Positions 5,213 through 53,979 of a stretch of 64,000 nucleotides of DNA are shown here, one piece after another (position 1 is the stretch's first letter; each line of letters opens with the position of its first letter). The DNA comes from Sycon ciliatum (Eukaryota; Porifera; Calcarea; Leucosolenida; Sycettidae): contig NC_088654.1 in NCBI RefSeq assembly GCF_964019385.1, positions 4,981,597 through 5,045,596 of the forward strand. The letters run 5' to 3'. The notes beneath the pieces are model-generated. The model worked only from the letters and a program-made list of their open reading frames with translations. It was not told the origin of the DNA and made no database searches. The position numbers and the translations under genes were made by a program.

Positions 5213-6220
5213 CTATGCATGAGTAAGGCCTTCACGCAAGAAACTAAGATAACATGCAAATGGATTTATAGCCCCAGTTACAGACTCCATAGAGAAATAC
5301 CGCTGTAATGATAGCACCTGAGCGCACTTTCCAATACTCATCGTTTCCTTTAACAATCCATCTAGTCTGGTGTAGCTCGCTTGCATTTCGTCAATGAAGC
5401 AGGAAATAGCTGCCTCGTGTTTATCCTTGTACTGTACTGACGTCACTTGCGTATGATCATCAACATCTATAAACGAGTATTCATGTGAACTGAGATACTG
5501 CGGAGAAAGAACGACTGAGGAAGATTTGTAAAGGATCTGGCTTCCTGGTCTTAAGCAATTGTGTAAAAATATCGGCACATGAGAAAGGTTAACGGACCTG
5601 TCCGTCATTGTCGCTGCCAAGTTAGTGTTCATCTCTACGGCTATAAATATCGTACATTCGGCATGTGGCTTGAAAACATCAAAATACACTGGATGGTCAG
5701 GTCCAAACTGCATATTCCTTTCAAGACATTGGATGGTTTTGGAGAGTATCCACTTATAAGATTTGTATTTCGGTGAAATCTCCACTTTCAACGAGGTTGG
5801 CAGGTCAAATAATGTAAAGAAGCCAAGGAAAATATCCATGAGATTTCCTGGGGCACTGGAAAGACTTGATTTAGCTACCGTGGGCCATGTAGACTTGCAA
5901 CCAGTGCACTGCCACCGGTTCCCGCAATTTGACCGCGGATAAGCAGATATCCAGGCTGATCTTTCGCATTGGTTACATTGTATTTCATTACGAATCACCT
6001 TCCTTCTCGCCAAGTAGCGTAGCAATGACTGGTTGTCTCGTGTATGCTCCGAAATGTCCTTCCGAGAGTACTCTTCTGCCTCGTTGTCCGTTATAGAACT
6101 TGGTTCCACAATCTGGGTTCCTTCTAGACGTGCATTTGCGGCTGCTCCTCCAGGCGCAATAGCAGAAGCCGAGCCACCGACATTCGAATACATCTTGCCA
6201 GACGACGGTGTCACAGTCAA
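5213..6220 (-). CDS. Zinc-ribbon / Merlin-like transposase-derived protein, copy 1
   Basis: A single uninterrupted 335-aa frame with no introns needed. Residues 1-60 are low in order and acidic. Residues 63-80 (NQSLLRYLARRKVIRNEI) lead into a C4 zinc ribbon (C82, C85, C105, C108). The core at about 125-285 follows the layout of Merlin/ISXO2-like (IS1595) transposases: a helical segment, then HPVYFDVFKP where those enzymes have the first catalytic Asp, then a hydrophobic strand (IFIAVEM), then LRPGSQILYKSSS where they have PGT..I.SD.W. In this and every other copy that second Asp position reads YKSSS, and the last acidic position is not obvious (HEAAISCFIDEMQ). If the alignment is right, the catalytic triad is lost and the protein is a non-cleaving, possibly DNA-binding, derivative. 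The gene has duplicated 5' and 3' flanks. Function is unknown. Identity of the family is inferred from layout, not searched. Confidence 0.7.
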   Translation of the reverse strand: MTVTPSSGKMYSNVGGSASAIAPGGAAANARLEGTQIVEPSSITDNEAEEYSRKDISEHTRDNQSLLRYLARRKVIRNEIQCNQCERSAWISAYPRSNCGNRWQCTGCKSTWPTVAKSSLSSAPGNLMDIFLGFFTLFDLPTSLKVEISPKYKSYKWILSKTIQCLERNMQFGPDHPVYFDVFKPHAECTIFIAVEMNTNLAATMTDRSVNLSHVPIFLHNCLRPGSQILYKSSSVVLSPQYLSSHEYSFIDVDDHTQVTSVQYKDKHEAAISCFIDEMQASYTRLDGLLKETMSIGKCAQVLSLQRYFSMESVTGAINPFACYLSFLREGLTHA

Positions 6221-6239
6221 AGCTATCAGAGATCCGGTA

Positions 6240-6395
6240 ACTTGGCGACACAGACTTTGAACCAGTTATTGTGTCGCAGGCAGTTTATACACGTCCCCTA
6301 GTGATGACATAATTATACAGTGTGATGATTTTGTCACTTACTCTTACCGTTTTGTTGAACTTGCAATGTCACCTAGAGCTAGACCTGGGCAGATA
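6240..6395 (-). promoter_or_regulatory. Conserved upstream block of Merlin-like gene copy 1
   Basis: About 150 bp directly upstream of the start codon is conserved among copies 1, 2, 3 and 5 and an orphan copy at 45.09 kb. The core reads (plus strand) AGTTTATACA, GTGATGAC, TATACAGTGTGATGATTT and TGTCACTTACTCTTACGATA. It includes the opposed repeats GTGATGAC and GTCAC. A promoter or 5' UTR role is inferred from position and conservation only. Confidence 0.45.
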
Positions 6396-12029: not shown

Positions 12030-13010
12030 TTATGAAGTGCCTTCCCGGAAGACATTGAGATAACATGCAAACGGATTTCGGTCCAGACGTACAGACTGGA
12101 TGTTGAAAAAGCGACGCAAAGACAGCACCTGAGAGCACATTAAAAATTCCGGCTGCAGCTTTAGCAGTAATTCTAGTCTACCATGGGTGTCTTGAACTTC
12201 GTTAATAAAGCTGGAAATGGCTGCTTCGTGATCCTTGTACTGCCCTGATGTCCGTTGTGTCTGCTCATCAACATCAGTACACGAGTATCCACGTGCACTG
12301 CTAGTCAGCCGGGAATGATGGATTGAGGAAGATTTGTAAATGATCTCGGTTCCTGGTCCTAACCATTTGTCCAAAAATGTCGGCACGCAACAAAGGTCAC
12401 CTACACTATCCTCCATAGTCACTGCAAAGTGACTGCTCATCTCCACCGCAATAAGAAACGTACTTCCGGTTTTTGGCTTGAAAACTTCTAAATACACTGG
12501 ATGTATAAGTCCTAACTTCAAATTCTCTTCAAGCAGCCCGAAGCTTTTGAGGAGTATCCACTCATATGATCTGTAGTTCGATTGAATCTCCACTTTGGAT
12601 GAGGTTGGTAGGTCAAACAATTTGAAGAAGCCTAACACGATCTCCATGAGAGTTCCTCGGGCATTGGAAAGATTCGATTCAGCAACGATGGGCCATGTAG
12701 ACATGCAATGGTAGCAGTACCACCGACACCCGACTCTTGTCCTTGGCTGAACCTGTATTCTGGCTGATCGTCCGCATTGGTTACATTGTATTTCATTACG
12801 TATCAATTTCCTTCTCGCCAAGAAGCGTAGCAATGACTGTTTGTCCTGTATATCTTCCGAAAGGTCTTTCCAAGAGAACACTTCCTTCTTCCACTGCTCA
12901 TCGTCCATTATCATACCTGGTTGCACAATATGGGTTCCCGCTAGTGGTGCATTGGCCGCCACTCCTCCAGACGCACAGGCAGAAGCTGAGTAACCGACAT
13001 TGGACTCCAT
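12030..13010 (-). CDS. Zinc-ribbon / Merlin-like transposase-derived protein, copy 2
   Basis: An intact 326-aa frame starting MESNVGYSAS and ending LNVFREGTS. The zinc ribbon is C76, C79, C99, C102. The core repeats the family pattern: HPVYLEVFKP, then a strand TFLIAVEM, then PTFLDKWLGPGTEIIYKSSS, then a YSCTDVDEQTQ block, and a C-terminal CSQVLSLRRFF...NPFACYL. The first core Asp is replaced by Glu here (LEV versus LDV in others), which further argues that the site is not under catalytic constraint. The conserved upstream block follows at 13.05-13.2 kb. Very similar to copy 5, which shares its 3' flank; these two are the most recent pair by eye. Confidence 0.75.
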   Translation of the reverse strand: MESNVGYSASACASGGVAANAPLAGTHIVQPGMIMDDEQWKKEVFSWKDLSEDIQDKQSLLRFLARRKLIRNEIQCNQCGRSARIQVQPRTRVGCRWYCYHCMSTWPIVAESNLSNARGTLMEIVLGFFKLFDLPTSSKVEIQSNYRSYEWILLKSFGLLEENLKLGLIHPVYLEVFKPKTGSTFLIAVEMSSHFAVTMEDSVGDLCCVPTFLDKWLGPGTEIIYKSSSIHHSRLTSSARGYSCTDVDEQTQRTSGQYKDHEAAISSFINEVQDTHGRLELLLKLQPEFLMCSQVLSLRRFFNIQSVRLDRNPFACYLNVFREGTS

Positions 13011-13039
13011 CTTGGCGGACGACGGTGTCTCATTAAACG

Positions 13040-13790
13040 CTAGCAGCGATCCAGTTACCTGACAAGAAAGGCTTTAGACCCGATATTGTGTCGGAAACAG
13101 TTTATAGAAGTCCCGTGGTGATGAAATACTTCCCCGACGTGTTGATTCTGTCACTTACTCTAACGATATTGTTCAGCTAGATATGTCACCAGGGGCGGAG
13201 TAACATTTAGACAAATAATACCGCCCGCGATCTTCGCGCTTGAATTTGCATTTTCGTTACATACACGTATAATATTATAATATTATTTAGTGCGAATCCA
13301 CACACCAGTGTGAGGGTCACGTTGTTGTCCTCACAATTTTTGTATCTTCCAAACTGTGTTGGGTTAGAGGTACCCACCGCACTTGCAATTTTCTTCACCA
13401 TATTTTACCCCACCTATCCCTACCGCACTGTGTTACTACGAACGCAGTGTTGTGAAGTATTTAACGGGAAACTTCGATCATTGGTCTAAATTTACACTAA
13501 AACTTATAATATTTGGCACACATCGCGTGCAGCTGAAGATTGAAATCTATTGAATCTCGTTGTCTGCTTCCAAAATTATCCCGGAGACTGCCAAGCCTCT
13601 TCATTCGGCGGGACTTTGTCTACAGTAATAACCTACACTATTTATCACCTTCATTATCTTTATCTACCATTCAGTGATGTACTCTAGCTGAAGACCATCA
13701 CGAGAAAAGGTGGTGGGAAAGAAACCATTCCAGAGATGACGGGTGCATACTCAGAGGTATGTACGTATTGACTACGCGCGTTGTATAAGT
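13040..13790. repeat. Full-length 5' flank of copy 2
   Basis: The upstream block (about 13.05-13.2 kb) is followed by CGCGATCTTCGCGCTTGAAT, an AATATTATAATATTATT tract, GTGAGGGTCACGTTG, then the distal block that also occurs at 1.59, 23.49, 28.41 and 37.5 kb. This is the least interrupted copy of the flank and is useful as a reference for the insertions in the others. Confidence 0.65.
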
Positions 13791-14031
13791 ATGAACTCTT
13801 CATTGAGATCTTAGATTTTATTTTTAATTTATTTTACTTCACCGTTCAATGGCAGAAGCCAATGAAAAGGAGGGCGTTTAATAGCCAGCCATGGCAAGAG
13901 GAGGAAAAAGAAGAAGGAAAGAACATAAAAGAATCCAATATATCACACCACCACATTGCGCTCTTTGGCCGATCCAAACTCTGCACTCACATCACCATCA
14001 CCACAGCGAAGAAAATTGATATTGACAATGA

Positions 14032-14078
14032 CCTTCCAGACAGCTGTTTCGCTCCTCCTGAGCTCATCAGTGGAGGCA
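14032..14078 (-). ncRNA. Hammerhead ribozyme (type I), degenerate stem I
   Basis: Minus strand: CTGATGA, stem II GCTC..GAGC, GAAA, a palindromic stem III in ACAGCTGT, then the cleavable C. Stem I CCTCCA pairs with TGGA in the 3' strand and then has a mismatch, because the 3' side reads TGGAAGG. Confidence 0.75.
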
Positions 14079-14852
14079 TATGATGTTGAATGAAAGAATA
14101 ATAAGAATAGACTGATCTTTATTGGACTAAATTGGCGCAATTGCGCTCAATCTGCATAGAAACGTGACATACCCTAAGTGACAAAAGTGAAAACAAGGTC
14201 AGGTGATAACACGCGCTCATGGCTGGGACAGGAACATGTAGTACGTGTGAAAAGGAGGGCGCGCTAAAAACAGCAGTCAGTCTAACACCAGAAAAGTTTG
14301 TTATTGCATGTGCCACAAAAACCAAGATACTGCGGCTGACTGTACTTTTCCCATACTGACGTGACGGGGAATGAACAACGAAGCGAACTGGATGACGCTG
14401 CTGACCCAGAGGCCCCTGAGGCAACCACTGTCCTGCCAGCCCGTCGCACACAGCCACACCACGCCACCATACCCGTTGAACACGAACACTGATGTTGCCT
14501 GTGCCTCCAGTCAGCATCTTCCGCCGCAAAACAGCCACTTGACACACCGAGAGGCCCATGGGACATTCACTCCAGTCAGGGCCGCGCTGTGTCGACGATG
14601 CTAAATTTTGATTTAGCACTTTATGTTGAGGAACTATCCCGCTCGTCTCGTAATTTCACTGTCGCTCCTCGGCGAATTTCAAGTTGAGAAGTTGAGAAGA
14701 AGTAGCGACGACCCGGCTTTTATGGAATCCAATACACCACACCACCACATTGCGCTCTTGGTCGATCCACACTCTGCACTCACAATGTCATCACCATCAC
14801 CACAGCGAGGAAAATTCCGGTATAATATATAATTATATTGATATTGACAATG

Positions 14853-14899
14853 ACCCTCCAGACAGCTGTTTCGCTCCTCCTGAGCTCATCAGTGGAGGC
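14853..14899 (-). ncRNA. Hammerhead ribozyme (type I), complete
   Basis: Minus strand: stem I CCTCCA/TGGAGG is perfect, followed by core CTGATGA, stem II GCTC/GAGC, GAAA, and stem III ACAGCTGT closed by the cleavage-site C. All positions expected for a hammerhead core are present. Confidence 0.85.
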
Positions 14900-15228
14900 A
14901 TATGATGTTGAATGAAAAATAATAAGAATAGACTGATATTTATAGGGCTGAATTGGCGCAATTGCGCTCATTCTGCTTAGAAACGTGGCATACCCTAAGT
15001 GACAAAAGTGATAATGTAACAGGTAGCCGAGTGCCGAGTGGTAGTCGCGGTGCAATCAACAAGAGTTTGCTTTTATTCTTCTTCTCTCAGGTACACACCT
15101 CGGATATAATATAAGTAAAAGAAGAAGCTCAACATCCGAGTTTCAAAAGAAGAAGCGGCAAACGAGAGAGCTTGGAAGCTCAGGGCCCTACGCTATGCTT
15201 TTTTGCCCTGATGACCTAGACAACAAAA

Positions 15229-15305
15229 GCATAGGGATGTTATAAATTCTTTAAAAAAATCCTTTTTTTAAATTAAAGACATAACCTGGGATTCGAACCC
15301 GTACT
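15229..15305 (-). repeat. tRNA-related segment (SINE-like), copy 1
   Basis: Minus strand carries CGGGTTCGAATCCCAGG, a perfect polymerase III B box/T-arm, then a run ending in ATTTATAACATCCCTATG-type sequence. A near copy lies at 15512-15585. No convincing A box, so it is not a complete tRNA. Confidence 0.55.
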
Positions 15306-15511
15306 ATCGCGCGCCCTGCATGCATCCCCCGATACACTTCGCATACATACTAATTCTTCCAAGTTGCTTCACGTTATGATCTTGTATTTGAAAGCCCTAT
15401 TTGAATATGCATTGTGGCCAGCCGTCTTTGATGGTACGGTACGGGATAGGTACGGTACGGGTACGATCGAGGGTAATACGACACCGTTTACCGCCTTGAT
15501 GACGGCAAAAA

Positions 15512-15585
15512 TCATAGGGATGTTATAAATTTTTCAATTCTCCTATTTTTTTTTCAGGCATATCCTGGGATTCGAACCCGCACTC
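15512..15585 (-). repeat. tRNA-related segment (SINE-like), copy 2
   Basis: Same layout as the segment at 15229: CATAGGGATGTTATAAAT, a T-rich stretch, then CCTGGGATTCGAACCCGCACT on the plus strand. The pair could represent two SINE tails or one duplicated insert inside the LTR element. Confidence 0.5.
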
Positions 15586-16049
15586 ACGCTGATAACAAAT
15601 CATAAACTGATAACAAATCATAAAATAGAAGTAAAAGCACACCAGGTTCACACGATATCTCGGGGTCAAAAGGGAAAGAATGGTCCTCCAAACAGGACGT
15701 GAAAGACAGCCAATATTCTGCACATCGCGGGCTCAAACTGCCAGGAAATTCACAATTTCAAAAAATGCACTGCATCGTGGGAACTTACTCCGGTACACAC
15801 CTGGAGTGTAAAAGGGGATTCTCACACACTTCTCTCACAAGGTTAGTTAGGTAAACCGTGGCTCACCATGATCAGACGTCTACCAAACGAAACTGGATTC
15901 ACACACTCGCATAAAGGAAGACTGAAGAGAACTGAGAGACTGAAGGAAGACAGGAAAGAAAAGCCATACCTGGAATAAGCGTTAGTAACCACGGCGGCGG
16001 CTGGAGCTACGGCGGAGGGCGAGCCAGGTTTTATCTTCATCTTGGTTGA

Positions 16050-16522
16050 GCCGGTCACTCAGAGTGGCTAAATCGGCGTCAGAAAAATCACCTCCCTCCT
16101 CGTCTTGAATCGCGGTCTTTACATTGTCGATAGCATCGCTTTGCGTGACGTAAAGAGTGATTGTCTAGCCAGGAAGAGTGTTGACGAAAATCTGCATCCC
16201 ACCACGGAGGCAAAGTACCAAGTGAAGATTGGGCTCCTGCTTCCGACTGCGTGTCGGCGAAAATCCTACACTGCTGGTCTTGGGGAATACGCTCCTTGTC
16301 TTGGTCAGCAGCCTGCCTGTTGTCGTCCTCATCAGCTTCGCCATCACCACCGGAAGTATACATGTAGGTAGCGGGTCGCTTGGTATCGACATCGGAGTAT
16401 CCAGTGTGTGCCGTGCGGAGAGAAGGGTGATCCACGCCAGCACCCTGACTGCGCTGCAGGCTAATAAGCAGGGCAAAGCCCAGGAAGGCAAGAAACATGA
16501 TTCTCATCTTGATGCCCCGCAC
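16050..16522 (-). pseudogene. Signal-peptide ORF fused to broken polyubiquitin, inside the LTR element
   Basis: The 144-aa frame from 16522 starts with a signal peptide (KMRIMFLAFLGFALLISLQ, residues about 5-23), then an acidic linker. From residue 74 it reads QDKERIPQDQQCRIFADTQ, which matches the middle of ubiquitin. A small deletion and frameshift near 16240 move the match to the next frame: NLHLVLCLRGGMQIFVNTLPG, i.e. a ubiquitin C-terminus ending RGG followed immediately by the next repeat's MQIFV. A TAG stop then falls where Lys11 would be, and the match resumes (TITLYVTQSDAIDNVKTAIQ, then DEEG). After EEG the frame continues into an unrelated DADLATLSDRLNQ tail to about 16.0 kb. Head-to-tail junction without intron indicates origin from a polyubiquitin mRNA. 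It cannot make functional ubiquitin. Confidence 0.85.
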
Positions 16523-16601
16523 GGACCTCCAGCGGGTTGAGCCATGGGGGTCTGGGGTCGAATCTCGTTGTTTTATTTAAAAAATACACCGCTGCCACCA
16601 A

Positions 16602-16916
16602 TGTAACAGGTAGCCGGGTGGTAGGCGCGGTGCAATCCACAAGAGGTAGCTTTTATTCTTCTTCTCTCAGGCACATACCTTGGATATAATAATTATAAGT
16701 AAAAGAAGAAGGGGCGAATAAATAGGATTTTCTCTCCGCTGCACACCTGGAGGTTGAATACTTCTTCTTTTCGGCTTTGTCGTTGCTATCAAATCTCAAC
16801 AAAGCAGAAATGCGCAGCAGCTTTTACGCAACAGATACACTAAAATACCACAGGTAAAGTTCCGTATTAGTTCCGTAATACTTCAGTATTAATATTAGCC
16901 AAGCAAGGATACTACA
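16602..16916 (-). repeat. 5' LTR of the 15.0-16.9 kb element
   Basis: Bounded by TG and CA and adjoining the primer-binding-site-like TGGTGGCAGC. The first 110 bp (AACAGGTAGCCG, TTTTATTCTTCTTCTCTCAGG) repeat at 15015. The remainder diverges from the left terminus. Confidence 0.7.
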
Positions 16917-17600
16917 ATAACAAGGTCAGGTGATAACGACACGCGCTCATGGCTGGGACAGGAACATGTAAAAAAAAGTAAATTATCGTATCCGTTCCTG
17001 AAGGGAACTCCCGTTGCCGACGGGAAATCACATGTAGCACGTGTGGGGGGGGGGGGGGCGCTAAAAACAGCAGTCAGTCTAACACCAGAAAAGTAAGTTA
17101 GTAATTGCTTGTGCCACAAAAACGAAGATACTGCGGCTGACTGTACTTTTCCCATAGTGATGTGAGGGGGAACGAGCGACGAAGCGACCTGGATGACGCT
17201 GCAGACCCAGAGGCCCCTGAGGCATTCACTGTCCTGCCAGCCCGTCGCGCACAGCCACACCACGCCGCTATACCCGTTGAACACGAACACTGATGTTGCC
17301 TGCGCCTCCAGTCAGCATCTTTCGCCGCAAAACAGCCACTTGACACACGGAGGCGAGAGGAGGCCCATGGGACATTCACTCCAGTCTGGGCCGTGCTGCG
17401 TCCGACGCTGACGAGCTCAGGGGAAGCGAAACAGCTGTCTGGAGGGTCATTGTCAATATCAATCTAGATACCGGAATTTTCCTCGCGGTGGTGATGATGA
17501 TGTGAGTGCAGAGTATGGATCGGCCAAGAGCGCAATGTGGTGGTGTGGTGTGTTGGATTCCATAATGGCCGAGTCGTCGCTACTTCTTCTCAACTTCGAA
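16917..17600. repeat. Family A hammerhead repeat: remainder of copy 2, then inverted partial copy
   Basis: 16917-17407 continues the unit interrupted at 15010 (AACAAGGTCAGGTGATAAC, CTCATGGCTGGGACAGGAAC, AACAGCAGTCAGTCTAACAC). At 17408 the orientation flips inside the ribozyme, and 17408-17600 is the reverse complement of about 14.70-14.88 kb. The poly-G tract at about 17046 lies within the direct part. Confidence 0.8.
17408..17447 (+). ncRNA. Hammerhead ribozyme core, truncated at the inversion point
   Basis: Plus strand CTGACGA (allowed N7 = C), short stem II GCT/AGC, GAAA, stem III ACAGCTGT, C, then TGGAGGG. The 5' strand of stem I is missing because the inversion junction lies exactly at the core, so folding is unlikely. 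Confidence 0.6.
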
Positions 17601-18160
17601 AGAACATAATAATCGGAAAAAAGAACGCATCATCGGGGTGAAAGTTATCAATATGCTGACGATGATGAAGAGAGGCATGATAAGCTAGCAAAGGAGACGA
17701 GTGAGCCTGCAACTTGGCATAACATTAAACATGGTCTTTGAGATGTCTAATTTTGGACATTGTCTTCATTTCCAACGGCAGCTTGAGGCACTATAGGTAA
17801 TTAATAGTCATGCAGAAAAGATAGGAGTGTGGTGAACATAGTTGCCAAAGCTCTGGGAAGTACTATGCCATTGCGAGTGTCTGGTGCGAAAGTAAACCAA
17901 TTCTACTTGCTGAGATATTCAGGGTTAAAATTCAGTTTAATACGATGGACAAGAACGCATGACTGTTTCAACGACTGGATAGAAATGCGGCTGTTGGGGG
18001 CCAAACTATAGAGATCATTAGAGGGGAATAGGGAGGGTTTACGAAAAATATTTTTTAATATACTTTTCGTAATACGTATTCACATGCAACGACGCAAATC
18101 CACACAATTAAGTAGACACTTCTTTTCTATCAAACTTTTTCTTTCCCTTCTCTTCAGGAT
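17600..18160. other. No gene recognised; spacer between the two hammerhead arrays
   Basis: AT-rich sequence with short frames only. The right edge TTCTCTTCAGGAT reappears at the far end of the next array (about 22.88 kb). Confidence 0.5.
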
Positions 18161-18259
18161 ATTCATTGCATTCCCAACTCATCACAACCACGCGCTCTTC
18201 AGCCGAACCATACAGACACCAGCAAGGACACTTCCGTTGAGAGATAATATTGCTCCACG

Positions 18260-18305
18260 CCTCTAGACAGCTGTTTCGCTCCCTGTCGGAGCTCATCAGT
18301 AGAGG
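18260..18305 (-). ncRNA. Hammerhead ribozyme, 850-bp unit 1
   Basis: Minus strand: stem I CCTCTA pairs perfectly with TAGAGG; core CTGATGA; stem II GCTCC-GACAG-GGAGC; GAAA; stem III in the palindrome ACAGCTGT; then C at the cleavage site, giving the GTC^TAGAGG cut. A three-pair stem III with a self-complementary sequence is the arrangement known for dimeric hammerheads of animal retrozymes and Penelope-like elements. Confidence 0.9.
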
Positions 18306-19109
18306 ATGATAATGATGATAATGGAGGAATGATCATTCTTATACACCAGAAATGGCGCAAGTGCGCGCTTTCCACATAATATCAATGGCATATGCAAGCT
18401 GCTAAAATGGTAAAGTGTGAGAACAGCGATAAATAATCATAGTACGCGCTCATTGGTGGAGAAACACACCACACAAGCGACGAAAATCTTACTCGGAATA
18501 CTGATGCCAATGGAAAGTACATGTATGTTGTTTATTATTATGATGTTGCAATGTCCATGTATGCAGGCGAGGCGAGACTCACCGCCGAGATCCCCCAACG
18601 CGACAGGCTCGGTTGCCGTTCAGGATTCACACCGACCTGTCCGCCCGTCAACAGGATCGACAGCGGGAGGCCCCACTGATGCCGATGTCGATGCACACCA
18701 GGAAACTTGTAGTTGTAGTCGTGAGTGTGATACTAACAGGTCTAGTAGCAACCACTGACAAACGAGAGGCCAGCTGGGGCATTCACTCCAGTCAGGGATG
18801 CTTGGTCGACGCTTCGTATCAGCAGCTCAGCTCAGTTTGATCAAAGATGTTGCAGATGTGTCTTGCTTTCCTCCTTCCTTCTTCACCGACTCGTCTTGTC
18901 ATCTCTCCTTCTTTCTTCACCGACTCTTCGTGTCCACTCTGCTCTGCCACTAACGGCGCATTAAAACTTCAGAACTAAATATTGCGACAGAGCTTTCGGC
19001 CATATTTTCAATTCATTGCATTCCCAACTCATCACAACCACGCGCTTTTCAGCCGAACCATACAGACACCAGCAAGGACACTTCCGTTGAGAGATAATAT
19101 TGCTCCACG

Positions 19110-19155
19110 CCTCTAGACAGCTGTTTCGCTCCCTGTCGGAGCTCATCAGTAGAGG
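19110..19155 (-). ncRNA. Hammerhead ribozyme, 850-bp unit 2
   Basis: Identical to the unit 1 ribozyme. Confidence 0.9.
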
Positions 19156-19959
19156 ATGATAATGATGATAATGGAGGAATGATCATTCTTATACACCAGA
19201 AATGGCGCAAGTGCGCGCTTTCCACATAATATCAATGGCATATGCAAGCTGCTAAAATGGTAAAGTGTGAGAACAGCGATAAATAATCATAGTACGCGCT
19301 CATTGGTGGAGAAACACACCACACAAGCGACGAAAATCTTACTCGGAATACTGATGCCAATGGAAAGTACATGTATGTTGTTTATTATTATGATGTTGCA
19401 ATGTCCATGTATGCAGGCGAGGCGAGACTCACCGCCGAGATCCCCCAACGCGACAGGCTCGGTTGCCGTTCAGGATTCACACCGACCTGTCCGCCCGTCA
19501 ACAGGATCGACAGCGGGAGGCCCCACTGATGCCGATGTCGATGCACACCAGGAAACTTGTAGTTGTAGTCGTGAGTGTGATACTAACAGGTCTAGTAGCA
19601 ACCACTGACAAACGAGAGGCCAGCTGGGGCATTCACTCCAGTCAGGGATGCTTGGTCGACGCTTCGTATCAGCAGCTCAGCTCAGTTTGATCAAAGATGT
19701 TGCAGATGTGTCTTGCTTTCCTCCTTCCTTCTTCACCGACTCGTCTTGTCATCTCTCCTTCTTTCTTCACCGACTCTTCGTGTCCACTCTGCTCTGCCAC
19801 TAACGGCGCATTAAAACTTCAGAACTAAATATTGCGACAGAGCTTTCGGCAATATTTTCAATTCATTGCATTCCCAACTCATCACAACCACGCGCTCTTC
19901 AGCCGAACCATACAGACACCAGCAAGGACACTTCCGTTGAGAGATAATATTGCTCCACG

Positions 19960-20005
19960 CCTCTAGACAGCTGTTTCGCTCCCTGTCGGAGCTCATCAGT
20001 AGAGG
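19960..20005 (-). ncRNA. Hammerhead ribozyme, 850-bp unit 3
   Basis: Identical to the unit 1 ribozyme. Confidence 0.9.
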
Positions 20006-20809
20006 ATGATAATGATGATAATGGAGGAATGATCATTCTTATACACCAGAAATGGCGCAAGTGCGCGCTTTCCACATAATATCAATGGCATATGCAAGCT
20101 GCTAAAATGGTAAAGTGTGAGAACAGCGATAAATAATCATAGTACGCGCTCATTGGTGGAGAAACACACCACACAAGCGACGAAAATCTTACTCGGAATA
20201 CTGATGCCAATGGAAAGTACATGTATGTTGTTTATTATTATGATGTTGCAATGTCCATGTATGCAGGCGAGGCGAGACTCACCGCCGAGATCCCCCAACG
20301 CGACAGGCTCGGTTGCCGTTCAGGATTCACACCGACCTGTCCGCCCGTCAACAGGATCGACAGCGGGAGGCCCCACTGATGCCGATGTCGATGCACACCA
20401 GGAAACTTGTAGTTGTAGTCGTGAGTGTGATACTAACAGGTCTAGTAGCAACCACTGACAAACGAGAGGCCAGCTGGGGCATTCACTCCAGTCAGGGATG
20501 CTTGGTCGACGCTTCGTATCAGCAGCTCAGCTCAGTTTGATCAAAGATGTTGCAGATGTGTCTTGCTTTCCTCCTTCCTTCTTCACCGACTCGTCTTGTC
20601 ATCTCTCCTTCTTTCTTCACCGACTCTTCGTGTCCACTCTGCTCTGCCACTAACGGCGCATTAAAACTTCAGAACTAAATATTGCGACAGAGCTTTCGGC
20701 CATATTTTCAATTCATTGCATTCCCAACTCATCACAACCACGCGCTCTTCAGCCGAACCATACAGACACCAGCAAGGACACTTCCGTTGAGAGATAATAT
20801 TGCTCCACG

Positions 20810-20855
20810 CCTCTAGACAGCTGTTTCGCTCCCTGTCGGAGCTCATCAGTAGAGG
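20810..20855 (-). ncRNA. Hammerhead ribozyme, 850-bp unit 4
   Basis: Identical to the unit 1 ribozyme. Confidence 0.9.
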
Positions 20856-21659
20856 ATGATAATGATGATAATGGAGGAATGATCATTCTTATACACCAGA
20901 AATGGCGCAAGTGCGCGCTTTCCACATAATATCAATGGCATATGCAAGCTGCTAAAATGGTAAAGTGTGAGAACAGCGATAAATAATCATAGTACGCGCT
21001 CATTGGTGGAGAAACACACCACACAAGCGACGAAAATCTTACTCGGAATACTGATGCCAATGGAAAGTACATGTATGTTGTTTATTATTATGATGTTGCA
21101 ATGTCCATGTATGCAGGCGAGGCGAGACTCACCGCCGAGATCCCCCAACGCGACAGGCTCGGTTGCCGTTCAGGATTCACACCGACCTGTCCGCCCGTCA
21201 ACAGGATCGACAGCGGGAGGCCCCACTGATGCCGATGTCGATGCACACCAGGAAACTTGTAGTTGTAGTCGTGAGTGTGATACTAACAGGTCTAGTAGCA
21301 ACCACTGACAAACGAGAGGCCAGCTGGGGCATTCACTCCAGTCAGGGATGCTTGGTCGACGCTTCGTATCAGCAGCTCAGCTCAGTTTGATCAAAGATGT
21401 TGCAGATGTGTCTTGCTTTCCTCCTTCCTTCTTCACCGACTCGTCTTGTCATCTCTCCTTCTTTCTTCACCGACTCTTCGTGTCCACTCTGCTCTGCCAC
21501 TAACGGCGCATTAAAACTTCAGAACTAAATATTGCGACAGAGCTTTCGGCCATATTTTCAATTCATTGCATTCCCAACTCATCACAACCACGCGCTCTTC
21601 AGCCGAACCATACAGACACCAGCAAGGACACTTCCGTTGAGAGATAATATTGCTCCACG

Positions 21660-21705
21660 CCTCTAGACAGCTGTTTCGCTCCCTGTCGGAGCTCATCAGT
21701 AGAGG
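21660..21705 (-). ncRNA. Hammerhead ribozyme, 850-bp unit 5
   Basis: Identical to the unit 1 ribozyme. Confidence 0.9.
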
Positions 21706-22409
21706 ATGATAATGATGATAATGGAGGAATGATCATTCTTATACACCAGAAATGGCGCAAGTGCGCGCTTTCCACATAATATCAATGGCATATGCAAGCT
21801 GCTAAAATGGTAAAGTGTGAGAACAGCGATAAATAATCATAGTACGCGCTCATTGGTGGAGAAACACACCACACAAGCGACGAAAATCTTACTCGGAATA
21901 CTGATGCCAATGGAAAGTACATGTATGTTGTTTATTATTATGATGTTGCAATGTCCATGTATGCAGGCGAGGCGAGACTCACCGCCGAGATCCCCCAACG
22001 CGACAGGCTCGGTTGCCGTTCAGGATTCACACCGACCTGTCCGCCCGTCAACAGGATCGACAGCGGGAGGCCCCACTGATGCCGATGTCGATGCACACCA
22101 GGAAACTTGTAGTTGTAGTCGTGAGTGTGATACTAACAGGTCTAGTAGCAACCACTGACAAACGAGAGGCCAGCTGGGGCATTCACTCCAGTCAGGGATG
22201 CTTGGTCGACGCTTCGTATCAGCACCTCAGCTCAGTTTGATCAAAGATGTTGCAGATGTGTCTTGCTTTCCTCCTTCCTTCTTCACCGACTCGTCTTGTC
22301 ATCTCTCCTTCTTTCTTCACCGACTCTTCGTGTCCACTCTGCTCTGCCACTAACGGCGCATTAAAACTTCAGAACTAAATATTGCGACAGAGCTTTCGGC
22401 CATATTACA

Positions 22410-22883
22410 GGGATCTCGGCGGTGGGTCTCGCCTCGCCTGCATACATGGACATTGCAACATCATAATAATAAACAACATACATGTACTTTCCATTGGCAT
22501 CAGTATTCCGAGTAAGATTTTCGTCGCTTGTGTGGTGTGTTTCTCCACCAATGAGCGCGTACTATGATTATTTATCGCTGTTCTCACACTTTACCATTTT
22601 AGCAGCTTGCATATGCCATTGATATTATGTGGAAAGCGCGCACTTGCGCCATTTCTGGTGTATAAGAATGATCATTCCTCCATTATCATCATTATCATCC
22701 TCTACTGATGAGCTCCGACAGGGAGCGAAACAGCTGTCTAGAGGCGTGGAGCAATATTATCTCTCAACGGAAGTGTCCTTGCTGGTGTCTGTATGGTTCG
22801 GCTGAAGAGCGCGTGGTTGTGATGAGTTGGGAATGCAATGAATTGAAAATATGGCCGAAAGCTCTGTCGCAATATTTAGTTCT
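22410..22883 (+). repeat. Inverted partial unit closing the 850-bp array
   Basis: Reverse complement of the unit from its GGGATCTCGG region through the unit start and about 45 bp into the preceding unit end (CGCAATATTTAGTTCT). It abuts unit 5 with about three unmatched bases. Terminal inverted partial copies are typical of Penelope-like element insertions. Confidence 0.88.
22699..22744 (+). ncRNA. Hammerhead ribozyme in the inverted partial unit
   Basis: Same 46-nt sequence as in the direct units, here on the plus strand and complete. Confidence 0.88.
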
Positions 22884-22971
22884 CTTCAGGATAGTACAGG
22901 GAATGTTGAAAATTTGAAAAACACGTAACTATAGAGAATGAAAGAATGAAAAATGTCAACACTTCAACATA

Positions 22972-23160
22972 CAGTCAACTTCGCTAATAACGACTTCGGG
23001 TATAAAGACAATTCGTGAATAACGACAGAATTTCCATGCCCAGAGCATAGTCCCATCCCACTGTAATACATAATAATGAGAATTCGGGTATAACGACACT
23101 TCGCGAATAAGGACACCTTTTTGATGCTCCGCGCAGTGTCGTTATAAGCGAAGTAGACTG
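22972..23160. mobile_element. pogo-like MITE, 189 bp, copy 1
   Basis: Ends CAGTCAACTTCGCTAATAACGAC and, inverted, CAGTCTACTTCGCTTATAACGAC; flanked by TA on both sides. A close relative is at 52992-53183. Internal word GGGTATAACGACACTTCGCG is shared. Confidence 0.88.
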
Positions 23161-23202
23161 TAGGTGTTAAAAATGATTAAAGATTTAAAAACTCAAAAAA
23201 AA

Positions 23203-26304: not shown

Positions 26305-27318
26305 CTATGAAGTATCTTCACGCAAAACATTCAGATAACATGCAAACGGATTTTTGGACAGAACTACAGACTGGGTATTGAAAAAGCGTTGCAATGCTAG
26401 CACCTGAGCGCACATTTCAAAATCTGGCGTTTTCCTGAACAGTAATTGTAGTCTAGAATGGGTTTTTTGAAATTCTTCCCATAAGCAGGAAATGGCTGCC
26501 TCGTGATCCTTGCGCTGCCTTGATGAGCAATATTTCTGATCATCAACATCAGTAAACAAGTAGCCACGCACACAGCCGGTCATCTGGGAAAGATCGATTG
26601 AGGAAGATTTGTAAATGACCTTGGTTCCTGGTACTAACCATTTCTCTACAAATGTAGGCATGCTAGAAAGGTCACCTGAACTGTCCACCATTGTCACTGC
26701 AACGCTACTGTTCATCCCTACCGCAATAATCATCGTTCTCTCAGCGTTTGGCTTGAAAACATCCAAATGCACTGGATGTACAAGTCCTAACTTCAAATTC
26801 TTTTCAAGCATCCCGAGACTTTTGGAGAGTATCCACTGATATGATCTGTATTTCGGTGTAATCTTCACTTTGGACGAGGTTGGTAGGTCAAACAATGTGA
26901 AGAAGCCTAGCAAAATCTCCATGAGATTTCCTGGGATACTGGAAAGATTCGATTCAGCTACAGTCCTCCATGAAGACGAGCAACCGGTGCACATCCAATA
27001 ATGACCGCTGCTTGACATTCGCTGAACAAATATTCTGGCTGATCTTTCGCATCGGGTACATTGCATTTTATTACAAATCACCTTCCTTCTCGCCAAGAAG
27101 CGTAGCAATGACTGATTGTTCTGTATATCTCCCTCAAGGTCCTTCGAGGAGTACTCTTCCTCCTTGCACTGCTCATCGTCCAGTATGGTACTTGGTTCAA
27201 CAATCTCCATTCCCCTTACACGTGCATTGGCTGCTACTCCTTCAGACGCACCGGCGGAAGCTGAGTCATTGACATTGGTATTCATCTTGGTTGACGACGG
27301 TGTCACACTGTGTAACAC
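26305..27318 (-). CDS. Zinc-ribbon / Merlin-like transposase-derived protein, copy 3
   Basis: An intact 337-aa frame, MLHSVTPSSTKMN to LNVLREDTS. The second Met (residue 12) aligns with the internal start of copy 1. The zinc ribbon is C87, C90, C110, C113. The core shows HPVHLDVFKP, TMIIAVGM, VPTFVEKWLVPGTKVIYKSS and a shortened C-terminal helix MCAQVLALQRFFNTQSV. The YKSS replacement of the second acidic site is kept. A conserved upstream block lies at 27.32-27.48 kb. Beyond that, a TTAA-type element starts on the opposite strand 286 bp away, giving a divergent layout. Confidence 0.75.
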   Translation of the reverse strand: MLHSVTPSSTKMNTNVNDSASAGASEGVAANARVRGMEIVEPSTILDDEQCKEEEYSSKDLEGDIQNNQSLLRFLARRKVICNKMQCTRCERSARIFVQRMSSSGHYWMCTGCSSSWRTVAESNLSSIPGNLMEILLGFFTLFDLPTSSKVKITPKYRSYQWILSKSLGMLEKNLKLGLVHPVHLDVFKPNAERTMIIAVGMNSSVAVTMVDSSGDLSSMPTFVEKWLVPGTKVIYKSSSIDLSQMTGCVRGYLFTDVDDQKYCSSRQRKDHEAAISCLWEEFQKTHSRLQLLFRKTPDFEMCAQVLALQRFFNTQSVVLSKNPFACYLNVLREDTS

Positions 27319-27339
27319 TAAACGTTAGCAGAGATTCAG

Positions 27340-31984: not shown

Positions 31985-32925
31985 CTAAGTGAGATAAACT
32001 GCAAACAGATTTATAGCCCGATATACAGATTGCATATAGAAATTGCGCCGTAATGAAAGCACCTGAGCGCACTTTCCAATATCCAGAAGTTCCTTTAAGA
32101 CCCCATGCAGTCTAGTTTAGTGTGCGAACATTTCATCAATGAAGCAGGATATAGCTGCCTCGTGCTTACCCTTGTACTTCACTAACGTTAATTGTGTTTG
32201 ATCATCGACATCATTAAAAGAGAAGTCACGTGCACTGCTAGCTTGCTGAGAATGATCGATTGAGGAAGATTTGTAAATGATCTGGCTTCCTTGACTCAAC
32301 CATTTGTCTAAAAATGCATGGAAGCCAGAAAGGTCAGCGAAACTGTCCAGCATTGTCACTGCAAAGTTAGTGTTCATCTCTACCGCAATTAATATCTTAC
32401 ATTCGGCATAGGGCTTGAAAACATCCAAATAGACAGGATTCAAGGGTCCAAACTTCAACTTCTTTTCAAGCACTTCAACGCTTTTGGAGATTATCCACTG
32501 ATATGATTGGGATCTCGATATAATTCCCACTTTGGACGATGTTTGTAGGTCAAAAAATGGGAAGAAGCCTAGCACACTCGTCATGAGATTTCCTCGGGCA
32601 CTGGAAAGGTTTGATTTAGCTACGATCTGCCATGTCGACTTGCAACGATTGCACTGCCACTGATACCCGCCTTTTGAGGTTGCATGAACATATAATCTTG
32701 CTGATCGTTCGCATCGATTACATTGTCTTTCATTGCGAATCACCTTCCTTCTCGCCAAGAAGCGTAGAAATGACTCGTTGTCCTGTATATGTCCCGAAAT
32801 GTCCTTCCAAGAGTACTCTTCCACCTCGTCCTCCATTATTGTTCTTGGTTCCACAACCTGGGTTCCCGCTATACGTGCATTTGCTGCTCCACGGCCGAAG
32901 CCGAGTCATCGACATTGGAAGCCAT
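31985..32925 (-). pseudogene. Merlin-like gene copy 4 (broken)
   Basis: The frame 32854-32117 keeps the zinc ribbon (CNRCERSARL...WQCNRCKSTW) and the core HPV-like NPVYLDVFKP, GFHAFLDKWLSQGSQIIYKS. The N-terminus (SNVDDSASA at about 32.92 kb) is in a different frame because of a deletion. A stop after EMFAH at about 32117 cuts off the C-terminus, which then continues recognisably (TRLHGVLKEL, KCAQVLSLRRNFYMQSV). At least two lesions make it a pseudogene. It resembles copy 1 most. Confidence 0.75.
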
Positions 32926-33504: not shown

Positions 33505-33680
33505 TAAGTTTCCGTGCATGGCACGGTAAGTGGAGTTAGCAACACACCAACATCCTTGCCATAAGCAACACTTGTACATGCATAAAATGCACGCACTCCG
33601 AATTCCCGCGTTTCCGCACGGGACTGTGAGGAGCATGCGCATTACTCCAATTCGCCATGCTGTTGTTTCTTGCTCTTCGC
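33505..33680. repeat. Start of a roughly 3.1-kb duplicated segment
   Basis: TATAAGTTTCCGTGCATGGCACGGTAAG... through CGCCATGCTGTTGTTTCTTG recurs at 36611-36785 with a few changes. Confidence 0.8.
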
Positions 33681-34110
33681 TTTGCTGTGCTGACGGTCAA
33701 ATTGTTTGACTATCGCGGCCAGTTTCTGATCAATATCCGATCAACCATGTCTTTGTCAGTGAGCGATGTCCAGCCAAAACGCTCCGTTGCTTTGCTGCGC
33801 TGACGGTCAAATTGTTTGACTATCGCGGCCAGTTTCTGATCAATATCCGATCAACCATGTCTCTGTCAGTGAGCGATGTCCAGCCAAAATGCTCTTTGCT
33901 TTGCTGCGCTGACGCAGTGACGGTCAAATTGTTTGAAAATCGCGGCCAGTTTCCGATCAATATCCGATCAACCATGTCTCTGTCAGTGAGCAATGTCCAG
34001 CCATAACGCTCTTTGCTTTGCTGCCTTGACGGTCAAATTGTTTGACAATCGCGGCCAGTTTCTGATCAATATCCGATCAACCATGTCTCTGTCAGTGAGC
34101 GGTGTCCAGC
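33680..34110. repeat. Tandem repeat, about 110-bp unit, four copies
   Basis: Unit landmarks: GCTTTGCTG.GCTGACGGTC, AAATTGTTTGACTATCGCGG, CCAGTTTCTGATCAATATCC, GATCAACCATGTCTCTGTCA, GTGAGCGATGTCCAGCCAAA. Copies begin near 33675, 33788, 33896 and 34013. A truncated fifth copy is at 36790-36842. Confidence 0.88.
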
Positions 34111-34114
34111 CAAA

Positions 34115-34440
34115 ATGCGCTCTGCTGAGCTGCGAAACGCACTGGCATCCCGCAATTATTTAGACCCGACAGGAACAAAACCTACTCCGCGGACTCGCCT
34201 GCTTGAGTTGAAGTTGGCTCCAGACTACTGTACGCGAGGACTTGGCCGCTCCGGCAGCGGAGCAGAACCTAGCCGAGGCAACTGCAGCCCCATCCCTGGC
34301 CTGGGAGACTTTAGTCGGGAGGAGGTTCGCGACGCTTGGAGCACGTATTGTGCGACTTACGCAGCAGCACACCCCTCCAGGGCCCCCGGAGCTGTTTTCG
34401 CACCAGCCCATAATCTTGAAGATGGCTCCGAAATTTAGGT
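34115..34440 (+). CDS. Small ORF with SAP-like motif (gag-like fragment?)
   Basis: The 107-aa frame begins MRSAELRNALASRN, followed by LDPTGTKPTPRTRLLEL, matching the SAP pattern (helix, ...G.K..L..RL). SAP domains bind DNA, and invertebrate retroelement Gag-like proteins often begin with one. After residue 40 the +1 frame (AEQNLAEATAAPSLAWETLV...) looks more protein-like than the main frame, so a frameshift is likely. It immediately follows the 110-bp tandem repeats. Could also be chance. Confidence 0.35.
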
Positions 34441-34619: not shown

Positions 34620-36010
34620 ACTCTCAGCCCAACGGCGACTCTGCAATGATCCTGCTAAGTCTTTTACTCGTCTTCGAGTACAGCGCTTCCAGACTCTCAG
34701 CCCATCTACGGACGCAGTGCTGACACACCCTGCACAGTCCACCCTCCAGCAGTTGATGACGCAACCATGGACCTCATCCGCCAGGGCCTGGCAGACAGTT
34801 CCAGCATAACATGCGCTTCGCTGCCGCGCTCCGAACACTTGTCTCCCTGCGCCAGGGCAAGCCACACTCAAGGACTGATCAGTGCCGGCAGCATTGTTCC
34901 AGATCCTGTACTTTGAGCGCATTGCCCACGGTTCTAATGGCTAGCCGAATTGGACGGCACTCACATCAATTGCAGTGTAATAGTAATGCAGATAAATCCT
35001 GTTTGGGTCAGGTTGTCAGCGCTGCCGGACTCGCATCCCAACTGCCGAAGTGGTGCGGACACAACCAGCGCAGTCCACCCTCCAGCAACGACGCAACCAT
35101 GGACCTCATCCGCCAGGGCCTGGCGGACAGCTCCAGCATGGCATGCGCTTCGCCGCAGCACTCCGAACGCTTGTCGCCCTGCGCCAGGGCAAGCCAACCT
35201 CAAGGACTGATCAGTGCCGGCAGCATTATTCCAGATCCTGTACTTCGAGCACATCGCCCACTATGCTATTGGGCAGCCGCATTGGACGGCACTCACATAA
35301 ATTGCAGTGTAATAGTAATGCAGATAAATCCTGTCTGGGTCCGGTTGTCAGCGCGTCTGGACTTGCAGCCCAACTGCCAGCGGTGCCGGCACAACCAGCG
35401 CAGTCCACCCTTCAGCAGTTGATGACGCAACCATGGACCTCATCCGCCAGGGCCTGGCAGGCAGCTCCAGCACAACATACGCTTCGCTGCAGCGCTATGA
35501 ACGCTTGTCACCCCGCACTAGGGCAAGCCATACCCAGTGACTGATCAGTGCCAGCAGCATTGTTCCATATCCGGTACGTTGAGCGCATTCCCCACTATGC
35601 TAATGGGCAGCCGCATTGGACGGCACTCACATCAATTGTAGTGTAATAGTAATGCAGATAAATCCTGTTTGGGTCAGGTTGTCGGCGCTTCTGGACTCGC
35701 AGCCCAACTGCCGACGCAGTGCCGACACAGCCAGCGCAGTCCACCCTTCAGCAGTTGACGACGCAACCATGTACTTCATCCGCCAGGGCCTGGCGGACAG
35801 CTCCAGCACGACATACGCTTCGCTGCAGCGCTCCGAACGCTTGTCGCCCCCGCGCCAGGGCAAGCTACACCCAGGGACTGATCAGTGCCAGCAGCGTTGT
35901 TCCAGATCCGGTACGTAGAGCGCATTGCCCACTATGCTAATGGGCAGCCGCATTGGACGGCGCTCGCATCTATTGCTGTAAATAGTAATGCCGATAAATC
36001 CTGTTTGGGT
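34620..36010. repeat. Tandem repeat, about 333-bp unit, four copies
   Basis: The word ATGC.GATAAATCCTGT.TGGGTC recurs at 34986, 35318, 35652 and 35988. Other unit landmarks are CGCAGTCCACCCT.CAGCA, GACGCAACCATGGACCTCAT, CCGCCAGGGCCTGGCGGACA and GGACTGATCAGTGCC.GCAG. The unit length (333 = 3 x 111) leaves long overlapping frames in all phases; these are by-products of composition, not evidence of genes. Confidence 0.88.
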
Positions 36011-36019
36011 CATGTTGTA

Positions 36020-36430
36020 TTTTTGGGAGAACAGTAAGGATCGTGAGTCAGGCCGGCATTGAGCCAAGTGCGCCTATATTCGCTCACAAGTGCATCCTTT
36101 AAGCCATCCCGAAAGGGAGAACAGTAGGGATCGTGGGTCAGGCCGGCATTGAGCCAAGTGCGCCTACATTCGCCCACAAGTGCATCCCTACTGCATGCTC
36201 GTGTATTGACACATCTGAATTCAACAGTAGGGATCGTGGGTGAGGCCGGCATTGAGCCAAGTGCGCCTACATTCGCCCACAAGTGCATCCCTACTGCCTG
36301 CTCGTGTATTGACACATCTGAATTTAACAGTAGGGATCGTGGGCAGGCCGGCATTGAGCCAAGTGCGCCTACATTCGCCCACAAGTGTATCACTACTGCA
36401 TGCTCGTGTATTGACACGTCTGAATTCTCT
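36020..36430. repeat. Tandem repeat, about 104-bp unit, cluster 1
   Basis: Unit landmarks AGTAGGGATCGTGGGTCAGG, CCGGCATTGAGCCAAGTGCG, CCTACATTCGCCCACAAGTG, CTCGTGTATTGACACATCTG; four copies of variable length. Confidence 0.88.
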
Positions 36431-36610
36431 CCGGGCAATTGTTGCCCCAGTTAGTGTCGGCATTGGCCATACTAACGCACAGCGGTGCTTGCAATACTAG
36501 CTCTGGCTTTGGACCAGAATATTGCATATTGCATACGGCAATTGTTGCCTATCTCCTGGTAATACAACGCGTAATAGCTCCCAAACAGGTCGGCTTGTTG
36601 TGTGGTTGGT

Positions 36611-37395
36611 AAATATAAGTTTCCGTGCATGGCACGGTAAGTGGAGTTAGCAACACACCAACATCCTTGCCATAAGCAACACTTGTACATGCATAACATG
36701 CACGCACTCCGAATTCCCACGTTTCCGCACGGCACTGTGCGGAGCATGCGCATTACTCCGATTCGCCATGCTGTTGTTTCTTGCTCTTCGCTTTGCTGTG
36801 CTGACGGTCAAATTGTTTGACTATCGCGGCCAGTTTCTGATCACCCCCAACCACCCCATCATCTCTCACTAGCAGTCCATTCGAAACCATCCCGAAAGGG
36901 AGAACAGTAAGGATCGTGAGTCAGGCCGGCATTGAGCCAAGTGCGCCTACAATATGCGTATATTCGCTCACAAGTGCATCCTTTAAGCCATCCCGTAAGG
37001 GAGAACAGTAGGGATCGTGGGTCAGGCCGGCATTGAGCCAAGTGCGCCTACATTCGCCCACAAGTGCATCCCTACTGCATGCTCGTGTATTGACACATCT
37101 GAATTCAACAGTAGGGATCGTGGGCAGGCCGGCATTGAGCCAAGTGCGCCTACATTCGCCCACAAGTGTATCCCTACTGCATGCTCGTGTATTGACACGT
37201 CTGAATTCTCGCCGGGCAATTGTTGCCCCAGTTAGTGTCGGCATTGGCAATACTAACGCACAGCGGTGCTTGCAATATTAGCTCTGGCATTGGACCAGAA
37301 TATTGCATATTGCATACGGCAATTGTTGCCTATCTCCTGGTCATATAACGCGTAATAGCTCCCAAACAGGTCGGCTTGTTGTGTGGTTGGTAAAT
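36611..37395. repeat. Second, internally deleted copy of the 33.5-36.6 kb segment
   Basis: 36611-36842 equals 33505-33720; after a jump, 36885-37395 equals 36020-36600, including a second cluster of the 104-bp repeat and the block GGGCAATTGTTGCCCCAGTT...GTGTGGTTGGTAAAT. The junction at 36605 uses the shared TAAAT. The parts in between (SAP-like ORF and 333-bp repeats) are missing. Confidence 0.8.
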
Positions 37396-52824: not shown

Positions 52825-52991
52825 CACACAATTGCTAGTGCTCGTATACGTATCCGACGGAGTTTCTGTATAAACTGCTGGATAATGTCACTGCTACGCA
52901 TTTTTGACTTAAAAAAGACTCAACTTTGCCAAGGCATTTTTATGGATGTTTTGTTCAGCGGGACGATTTCATGCAGTCTTGAGTCGGGTTA

Positions 52992-53183
52992 CAGTCAACT
53001 TCGCCAATAATGACCACGGATATAACGACAATTCGCAAATAGCGACAGCATTTCCATGCCCAGAGCAAAGTCCCTTCCAACTGTAATACATAATTATAAT
53101 GGGACTTCGGGTATAACGACACTTCGCGAATAAGGACACTTTTTTGATGCCCCGCCGGGTGTCGTTATAAGCGAAGTTGACTG
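52992..53183. mobile_element. pogo-like MITE, 192 bp, copy 2
   Basis: CAGTCAACTTCGCCAATAATGAC at the left, inverted CAGTCAACTTCGCTTATAACGAC at the right, TA on both sides. It matches the copy at 22972 throughout. Confidence 0.9.
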
Positions 53184-53279
53184 TACAATAATATAACTAT
53201 TCTCGAGAGAACTGCGGTAAAGCTGCCCAAGTTTCGAATCATCTGGAGTAAACATCACACAGGGCGAGCAGAAGCCACC

Positions 53280-53920: not shown

Positions 53921-53979
53921 AATTTGAGTGCGGATGCAGATTTTCTCGTTCTGCGGTTTTCTTAGCTCATGTCCCAAGT

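Follow-up and report, generated by a model that had tools for sequence, protein, structure and literature searches.

The window considered here (the whole stretch of DNA analysed) is 64,000 nucleotides of the genome of the calcareous sponge Sycon ciliatum, contig NC_088654.1, positions 4,981,597 to 5,045,596 of the forward strand. It holds two insertions, called element A and element B in what follows. Each consists of a tandem "direct arm" of hammerhead ribozyme-bearing units facing a partial inverted copy of the same unit, the whole enclosed by a short target-site duplication (Table 1). Element A, its inverted arm and both copies of its duplication included, occupies 18148-22893; element B, its diverged sister, is built from an 822-bp unit and spans 13931-17597.

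Two insertions and their ribozymes

The units of element A start at 18161, 19011, 19861, 20711 and 21561, with a period of exactly 850 bp. Units 1, 3 and 4 are identical and differ from unit 2 at 2 positions; unit 5, which is incomplete and stops at ~22406, differs from unit 2 at 3. The inverted arm ends at site 2 and the direct arm at site 1 (both sites are defined in the next section), and the inverted arm therefore carries a 40-nt tail beyond the direct-arm end. The longest ATG-initiated frames of element A are 84 amino acids (antisense) and 61 amino acids (sense), and no frame combining reverse transcriptase with GIY-YIG endonuclease was found within it (no frame exceeds 84 amino acids). 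No long terminal repeat (LTR) is seen in A or B, and the G+C content of both is 48% (the published figure for animal retrozymes is <50% in the text and <45% in a figure legend of PMC7229834; this paper, PMC8490949, PMC4918200, PMC7761336, PMC3846280 and PMC11722881 are cited from excerpts throughout). One further observation: TACAGGGA stands both at the inversion junction (22406-22413) and just past the right target-site duplication (22895-22902), and is possibly target-derived filler.

Each unit carries, on the minus strand, the core CCTCTA-CTGATGA-GCTCC/GGAGC-GAAA-ACAGCTGT-C-TAGAGG: six pairs in stem I, five in stem II, and a stem III with zero loop (ACAGCTGT). The same core recurs on the plus strand in the inverted arm, so that element A has six ribozyme motifs rather than five, all of them (46 nt) letter-for-letter identical. 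An original prediction, made from the sequence alone, had described a tandem array of five near-identical 850-bp units at this place, each with a complete type I hammerhead whose stems I and II pair fully. The units, their period and their perfect cores bear this out; stem III, to which three pairs had been assigned, has four (A15.1-U16.1 had been omitted). The tandem arm is real, but the region had been drawn slightly too narrow, without the target-site duplications (10-14 bp), and the inverted copy with its sixth ribozyme had been overlooked.

A strict hammerhead descriptor finds 7 matches in the window (six in element A, one in element B) and 0 in 200 dinucleotide-preserving shuffles. Two element A cores can form an 8-bp stem III pairing in a predicted dimer, a feature absent from the predicted dimer of element B. 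Canonical hammerheads have tertiary contacts between loop 1 and loop 2; in element A an outer helix past stem I is predicted. The minus-strand hammerheads of element A are presumably active, possibly as dimers joined through the palindromic stem III. A looser pattern (which does not catch copies with broken cores) fits 107 copies in the 40 genomic loci surveyed below; 74 of these retain the window's core, and in 16 an A-U pair of stem I has changed to G-U. (A technical note: for a generic core pattern whose stem-loop is 10 nt long, the genome has 920 matches, and for the same pattern reversed 247; this pattern was not used; the element A core does not fit it, and many of its matches are repeats with stem II unpaired by eye. 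One exact pattern found no element A-related locus in viral contigs.)

Element B repeats the plan of element A: a 12-bp duplication, an inverted arm, and two RNA-3' ends, 136 and 173 nt past the ribozyme cut, whose 37-nt offset makes a 37-nt tail. GAAAGAACATAA occurs in the window only twice, as the two copies of the element B duplication. An 18-nt block, CCCTGACTGGAGTGAATG, is common to A and B at a similar place, and one pair of stem I covaries between them (CCTCTA/TAGAGG in A, CCTCCA/TGGAGG in copy 1 of B). Two open frames are noted in passing. The element B unit contains, in sense, a 178-codon stop-to-stop frame (14119-14655; 146 codons from ATG); the probable nested insertion in element B contains a 162-codon frame (16088-16576) with a signal-peptide-like start by eye and no Pfam match.

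Could such structures be artefacts of assembly? Assembly often goes wrong where repeats are tandem or inverted, but this explanation is the least probable of those to be weighed here: there are many loci of varied length, substitutions distinguish the units, and a sister element shares the plan.

Table 1. Features of elements A and B in the window (sense of both elements: minus strand).
Feature	Position	Strand	Remarks
Element B target-site duplication, left copy	13917..13928	.	GAAAGAACATAA, 12 bp
Element B direct arm	13931..15014	-	1.3 units of 822 bp; RNA-3' end 136 nt past cut
Element B hammerhead core, copy 2	14033..14076	-	one stem I mismatch; HH9 18.6 bits
Element B hammerhead core, copy 1	14855..14898	-	HH9 21.4 bits
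Nested insertion in element B (probable, later)	15014..16919	.	direct repeat ~115 bp at 15013-15127 and 16600-16711
Element B, further direct-arm sequence	16919..17410	-	matches 14192-14600
Element B inverted arm	17408..17597	+	5' end truncated inside ribozyme; RNA-3' end 173 nt past cut
Element B target-site duplication, right copy	17598..17609	.	GAAAGAACATAA
Element A target-site duplication, left copy	18148..18161	.	TTCTCTTCAGGATA; 10-14 bp: up to 4 nt perhaps microhomology with the element
Element A direct arm	18161..22406	-	five tandem 850-bp units; RNA-3' end at site 1, ~105 nt past cut
Type I hammerhead core, unit 1	18260..18305	-	descriptor scan; Rfam HH9 below threshold
Type I hammerhead core, unit 2	19110..19155	-	descriptor scan
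Type I hammerhead core, unit 3	19960..20005	-	descriptor scan
Type I hammerhead core, unit 4	20810..20855	-	descriptor scan
Type I hammerhead core, unit 5	21660..21705	-	descriptor scan
Sixth hammerhead core, in inverted arm of element A	22699..22744	+	descriptor scan
Element A inverted arm	22410..22883	+	474 nt, 100% complementary to units; RNA-3' end at site 2, ~145 nt past cut
Element A target-site duplication, right copy	22880..22893	.	TTCTCTTCAGGATA

The ends of dispersed copies

The element A family is dispersed in the Sycon ciliatum genome. Searching its 538 Mb (313 contigs) with one element A unit as query gave at least 172 matches, the best 40 of 878 candidate regions being scored; the listed matches group into 40 loci on 13 contigs (the window and 39 others). 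Comparison of flanks identified L040, L052, L053 and L070 as duplicates, and removing them leaves 36 independent loci for the counting of ends. These are 870-7406 nt long (30 of the 36 are shorter than 2700 nt). The units abut without inserted sequence in all 40 loci, save for a 387-nt gap in L046.

If the unit is numbered u1-u850 in sense from the first nucleotide past the ribozyme cut, the RNA-3' ends of the arms fall into two narrow intervals: site 1 (u95-118) and site 2 (u134-158), which lie ~105 and ~145 nt beyond that cut. Together they account for 59 of the 65 ends at the independent loci. Twenty-nine of the 36 loci are head-to-head insertions with an inverted partial copy. Of the two ends of such an insertion, one lies at each site in 23/29, one lies elsewhere in 6/29, and both lie at the same site in 0/29 (probability of all-different pairing when ends are re-paired at random, 1e-6). 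All seven loci with a direct arm only end at site 2. This strict pattern of one site per end points to a separate start site for each target strand.

The query itself began and ended at site 1, and long arms ending there are consequently over-sampled. Arms shorter than 830 nt are not favoured by a full-unit match, and 20 of 23 of these have their end at one of the sites (binomial 2e-22). A phase-neutral replicate with u350-650 as query (at least 43 matches; best 40 of 394 candidates scored) added 8 new loci: 10 of 11 ends are at the two sites, and 2 of 3 head-to-head loci have one end at each. One of the eight, L088 (at C2), has ~100 bp of 3' flank in common (95%) with window positions 18060-18161 before it diverges, and is therefore perhaps not fully independent; the shared flank may mean that both copies entered the same target repeat, or that read-through carried flank along.

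The flanks bear the marks of insertion. The best string common to the two flanks of a locus has a mean length of 12.5 nt (40 loci, the duplicates among them), where mismatched flanks give 5.6 nt, and reaches 8 nt or more in 32/40 loci as against 11% of mismatched flanks; the family's duplications are mostly 8-16 bp. The flanks are AT-rich (72%, against 53% in the window), and AATAAT or ATTATT is present no more than 30 nt from a boundary in 16/36 loci, compared with 9% of random draws from the window.

All this bears on two other accounts. Ordinary satellite DNA, amplified in tandem by unequal exchange or through DNA circles and carrying its ribozyme incidentally, would explain near-identical tandem units and an arm of some 8 units at C2. 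It is nevertheless highly unlikely: the 40 loci are scattered over 13 contigs, they are mostly short insertions with flanking duplications and fixed ends, and the window's core persists in most loose-pattern copies, as already described. Alternatively, mobilisation might be of the LINE (long interspersed nuclear element) type with twin priming, which gives 5'-inverted LINE-1 copies. Duplications of this length, inverted copies and LINE-type reverse transcriptases in the window are compatible with it, but twin priming is expected to fix one outer end only, while here the outer end of the inverted arm is fixed too, ~40 nt away; a 3'-terminal start or poly(A) is also nowhere seen. We regard this explanation, too, as very improbable.

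A proposed route of insertion

Two start sites separated by a few tens of nucleotides are familiar from Penelope-like elements (PLEs). The enzyme of the Anolis PLE Poseidon cuts and extends both strands of its target, favouring ATT, and starts at two internal sites, the sequence between them forming a 30-40-bp "tail" (PMC11167929). The ribozyme cut of that element lies 26 nt, and its main start 111-118 nt, past the start of the reading frame (PMC11167929); by our subtraction the main start is 85-92 nt past the cut. In the typical structure of bdelloid rotifer Penelope a pseudo-LTR (pLTR) is inverted, one inverted pLTR bears a tail of 31 bp, and the duplication measures 9 bp; the pLTRs are held to be sufficient for moving a foreign gene (PMC3846280). 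PLEs had already been put forward as a strong candidate helper of animal retrozymes, since both have hammerheads and tandem copies and the two occur together (PMC7229834); in a review of 2024 the movers are still given as LINEs or PLEs (PMC11722881). We conclude that elements A and B very probably represent two families of long, apparently non-coding, non-autonomous elements of the animal-retrozyme type that are mobilised by PLE enzymes. Element A is not itself an autonomous PLE.

The following sequence of events would generate the observed structures. In a minus-strand transcript of a genomic copy, each unit would bring its own type I hammerhead. The PLE enzyme would bind RNA that exceeds one unit in length, either a religated circle or a multimer left uncleaved, and its endonuclease would cut both strands of an AT-rich target, usually ~10-16 bp apart. 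Each target strand would then prime reverse transcription at one of the two fixed internal sites. The two cDNAs would run around or along the template for anything from a fraction of a unit to eight units, and joining them head to head would leave a tandem array opposite an inverted copy that bears a tail of 37-40 nt, with a duplication flanking the whole. The anatomy, the end sites and their pairing, the duplications, the dispersal and a PLE-like coding fragment near one copy are observed; the self-cleavage, the circle, the enzymatic steps of this scheme and the identity of the helper are what we infer.

What was the template? Among the 59 arms with ends at these sites, 55 exceed 156 nt in length and therefore cross the cleavage point, which implicates a religated circle or an uncleaved multimer rather than a cleaved linear monomer; the search favours long arms, but 19/23 short arms (<830 nt) are nonetheless longer than 156 nt. 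Copies are more alike within loci (median identity 99.4%, 38 loci) than between loci (98.2%, duplicates included), which fits one template per insertion. Two other potential indicators were set aside. Clustering of arm 5' ends, as from a fixed transcription start, is not significant (p 0.07-0.14) and so favours neither a single-start linear transcript nor a circle. A surplus of 850-1100-nt arms, as a sign of one turn of a circle, was discarded since loci holding a full unit were favoured by the search. A more specific proposal can be entertained tentatively, although we lean against it: one religated, ribozyme-made circle might be copied at once from both target strands by a dimer of the PLE enzyme, each subunit using its own internal site and rolling-circle synthesis setting the arm length. 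Were this so, retrozyme arrays would be direct records of circular-RNA reverse transcription.

PLE-like coding fragments lie beside some copies. A coding fragment of PLE type (L027:3099-3842), 660 bp from a copy, matches GIY-YIG with E 0.0028 (below the curated cut-off) and has 410 relatives; among the 120 listed, PF26215 is present in nearly all, and PF00078 or PF01541 in some. In L026 the GIY-YIG match is weaker (E 0.031), and L046, L073 and L004 have PLE-like stretches by eye. The presumptive helper is a PLE.

The same fragments can be turned to a different account, in which the 850-bp unit is the pLTR of an autonomous PLE and the arrays are tandems of solo pLTRs produced by internal deletion or recombination. 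The anatomy of the insertions equals that of PLEs, and an ATG inside the hammerhead core, which the Anolis PLE also has (PMC11167929), opens the 61-codon frame of element A. Yet an ATG belongs to every CUGAUGA core, and the element B frame that starts from it closes after 18 codons (by eye); coding from this ATG was rejected, the frame being broken or shortened in many copies. Also against this account, units abut at nearly every locus, and PLE hammerheads are described as minimal variants (PMC7761336). We think this account rather unlikely; it overlaps with mobilisation by PLE enzymes, and the two are not weighed as mutually exclusive.

Several observations weigh against mobilisation of retrozyme-type elements by PLE enzymes. 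The Rfam hammerhead models, proposed as a check in the original prediction, do return a match, but its best score for element A (Hammerhead_HH9, 23.4 bits, E 0.026) falls short of the gathering score of 52, which no hammerhead match of element A attains, and the scores of element B (18.6 and 21.4 bits) are sub-threshold too. The survey sample is biased by its query, as noted; 6/65 ends lie off both sites (u92 in L039, u57 in L045, u582 in L065, u696 in L069, u737 in L071, u37 in L076), as does one of 11 in the replicate (u21). All figures for element B come from one locus. Many flank duplications are AAT microsatellite, at which duplication length is uninformative. A hairpin between the two start sites has no support (p 0.06 and 0.78 for two variants of A, 0.82 for B), and a Pfam scan of L046, L073, L004 and L020 gave no reverse transcriptase or endonuclease match. 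A rod-like, self-paired circle likewise has no support (z +1.5 for A and +0.5 for B, against 30 shuffles each): the predicted circles are not unusually folded, unlike published retrozyme circles with their strong self-pairing. Finally, 15-bp duplications of Nematostella repeats have been likened to those of LINEs (PMC4918200).

The window has other features too. Six related stretches lie on the minus strand (5213-6265, 12030-13073, 26305-27324, 32117-32905, 39880-40732 and 41791-43071), mostly of ~340 codons, 69-82% identical in nucleotide sequence and with a zinc-ribbon-like cysteine pattern by eye; the sole one of these scanned against Pfam (12033-13073) has no match, and the six may represent a local gene family or a transposase. 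Neighbouring tandem arrays at 33672-34134, 34681-36018 and 36120-37208 have periods of ~110, ~332 and ~102 bp. A ~195-bp repeat occurs at 22970-23162 and 52990-53185 (88% identical); the first copy has inverted arms, and the repeat is perhaps a miniature transposon. LINE-type reverse-transcriptase frames lie at 53899-57435 and 59510-61735 (PF00078 in two), and a relative of the frame at 55474-57435 shows 98% identity across 88% of that frame.

Comparison with known systems

Animal-retrozyme-type elements with 850-nt units are now placed in a calcareous sponge; a keyword search of the literature (sponge with retrozyme, Porifera with hammerhead ribozyme) returned, in the excerpts available, no report of such an element, "sponge" meaning microRNA sponge in some of the papers. 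The insertions themselves bear the PLE signature of two start sites 40 nt apart, one per end. The two-site pattern thus offers PLE biochemistry a candidate cis-acting site and a natural template, and the arrays may tell whether a circular RNA was the template.

The term retrozyme-like, which the original prediction had used, suits this type of element: no recognised protein is encoded in the tandem units, the hammerhead is of type I, its stem III is palindromic and loopless, and no LTR is seen. That prediction had not taken in the head-to-head insertion with its duplications, the many dispersed insertions or the Penelope-type ends. Animal non-LTR retrozymes likewise consist of tandem units with type I hammerheads and have target-site duplications longer than 4 bp; for amphibian retrozymes helix III is described as weak and palindromic (PMC7229834), and the stem III of element A resembles it. 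Animal retrozymes further lack protein-coding capacity, LTRs, a primer-binding site and a polypurine tract, and their RNA self-cleaves and occurs as circles in tissue. The unit, as had been suspected, is unusually long: 850 nt (822 in the sister family) against 170-400 nt, although the discussion of that paper speaks of circles from 150 to >1000 nt, and its excerpts do not mention an inverted arm or two fixed end sites (PMC7229834). Schistosome W-elements are tandem repeats reaching 1.2 kb, with hammerhead motifs in four of their families, but they are mostly satellite arrays of the W chromosome, and two-site insertion ends are not mentioned in the excerpted text (PMC8490949). Plant LTR retrozymes are also non-autonomous and hammerhead-bearing, with a unit of ~700 nt; they differ in that the hammerhead is of type III, LTRs are present together with a primer-binding site and a polypurine tract, duplications measure 4 bp and the proposed helper is Gypsy (PMC4918200, PMC7761336).

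With the PLEs Anolis Poseidon and bdelloid Penelope, elements A and B share the inverted partial copy, the one-sided 30-40-bp tail, short duplications, AT-rich targets and a hammerhead upstream of the start sites (PMC11167929, PMC3846280); the Sycon duplications have a wider range than the 8-10 bp of bdelloid Penelope (PMC3846280). Unlike PLEs, the element A unit has no reverse transcriptase or endonuclease frame, and its insertions are multimers of one short unit.

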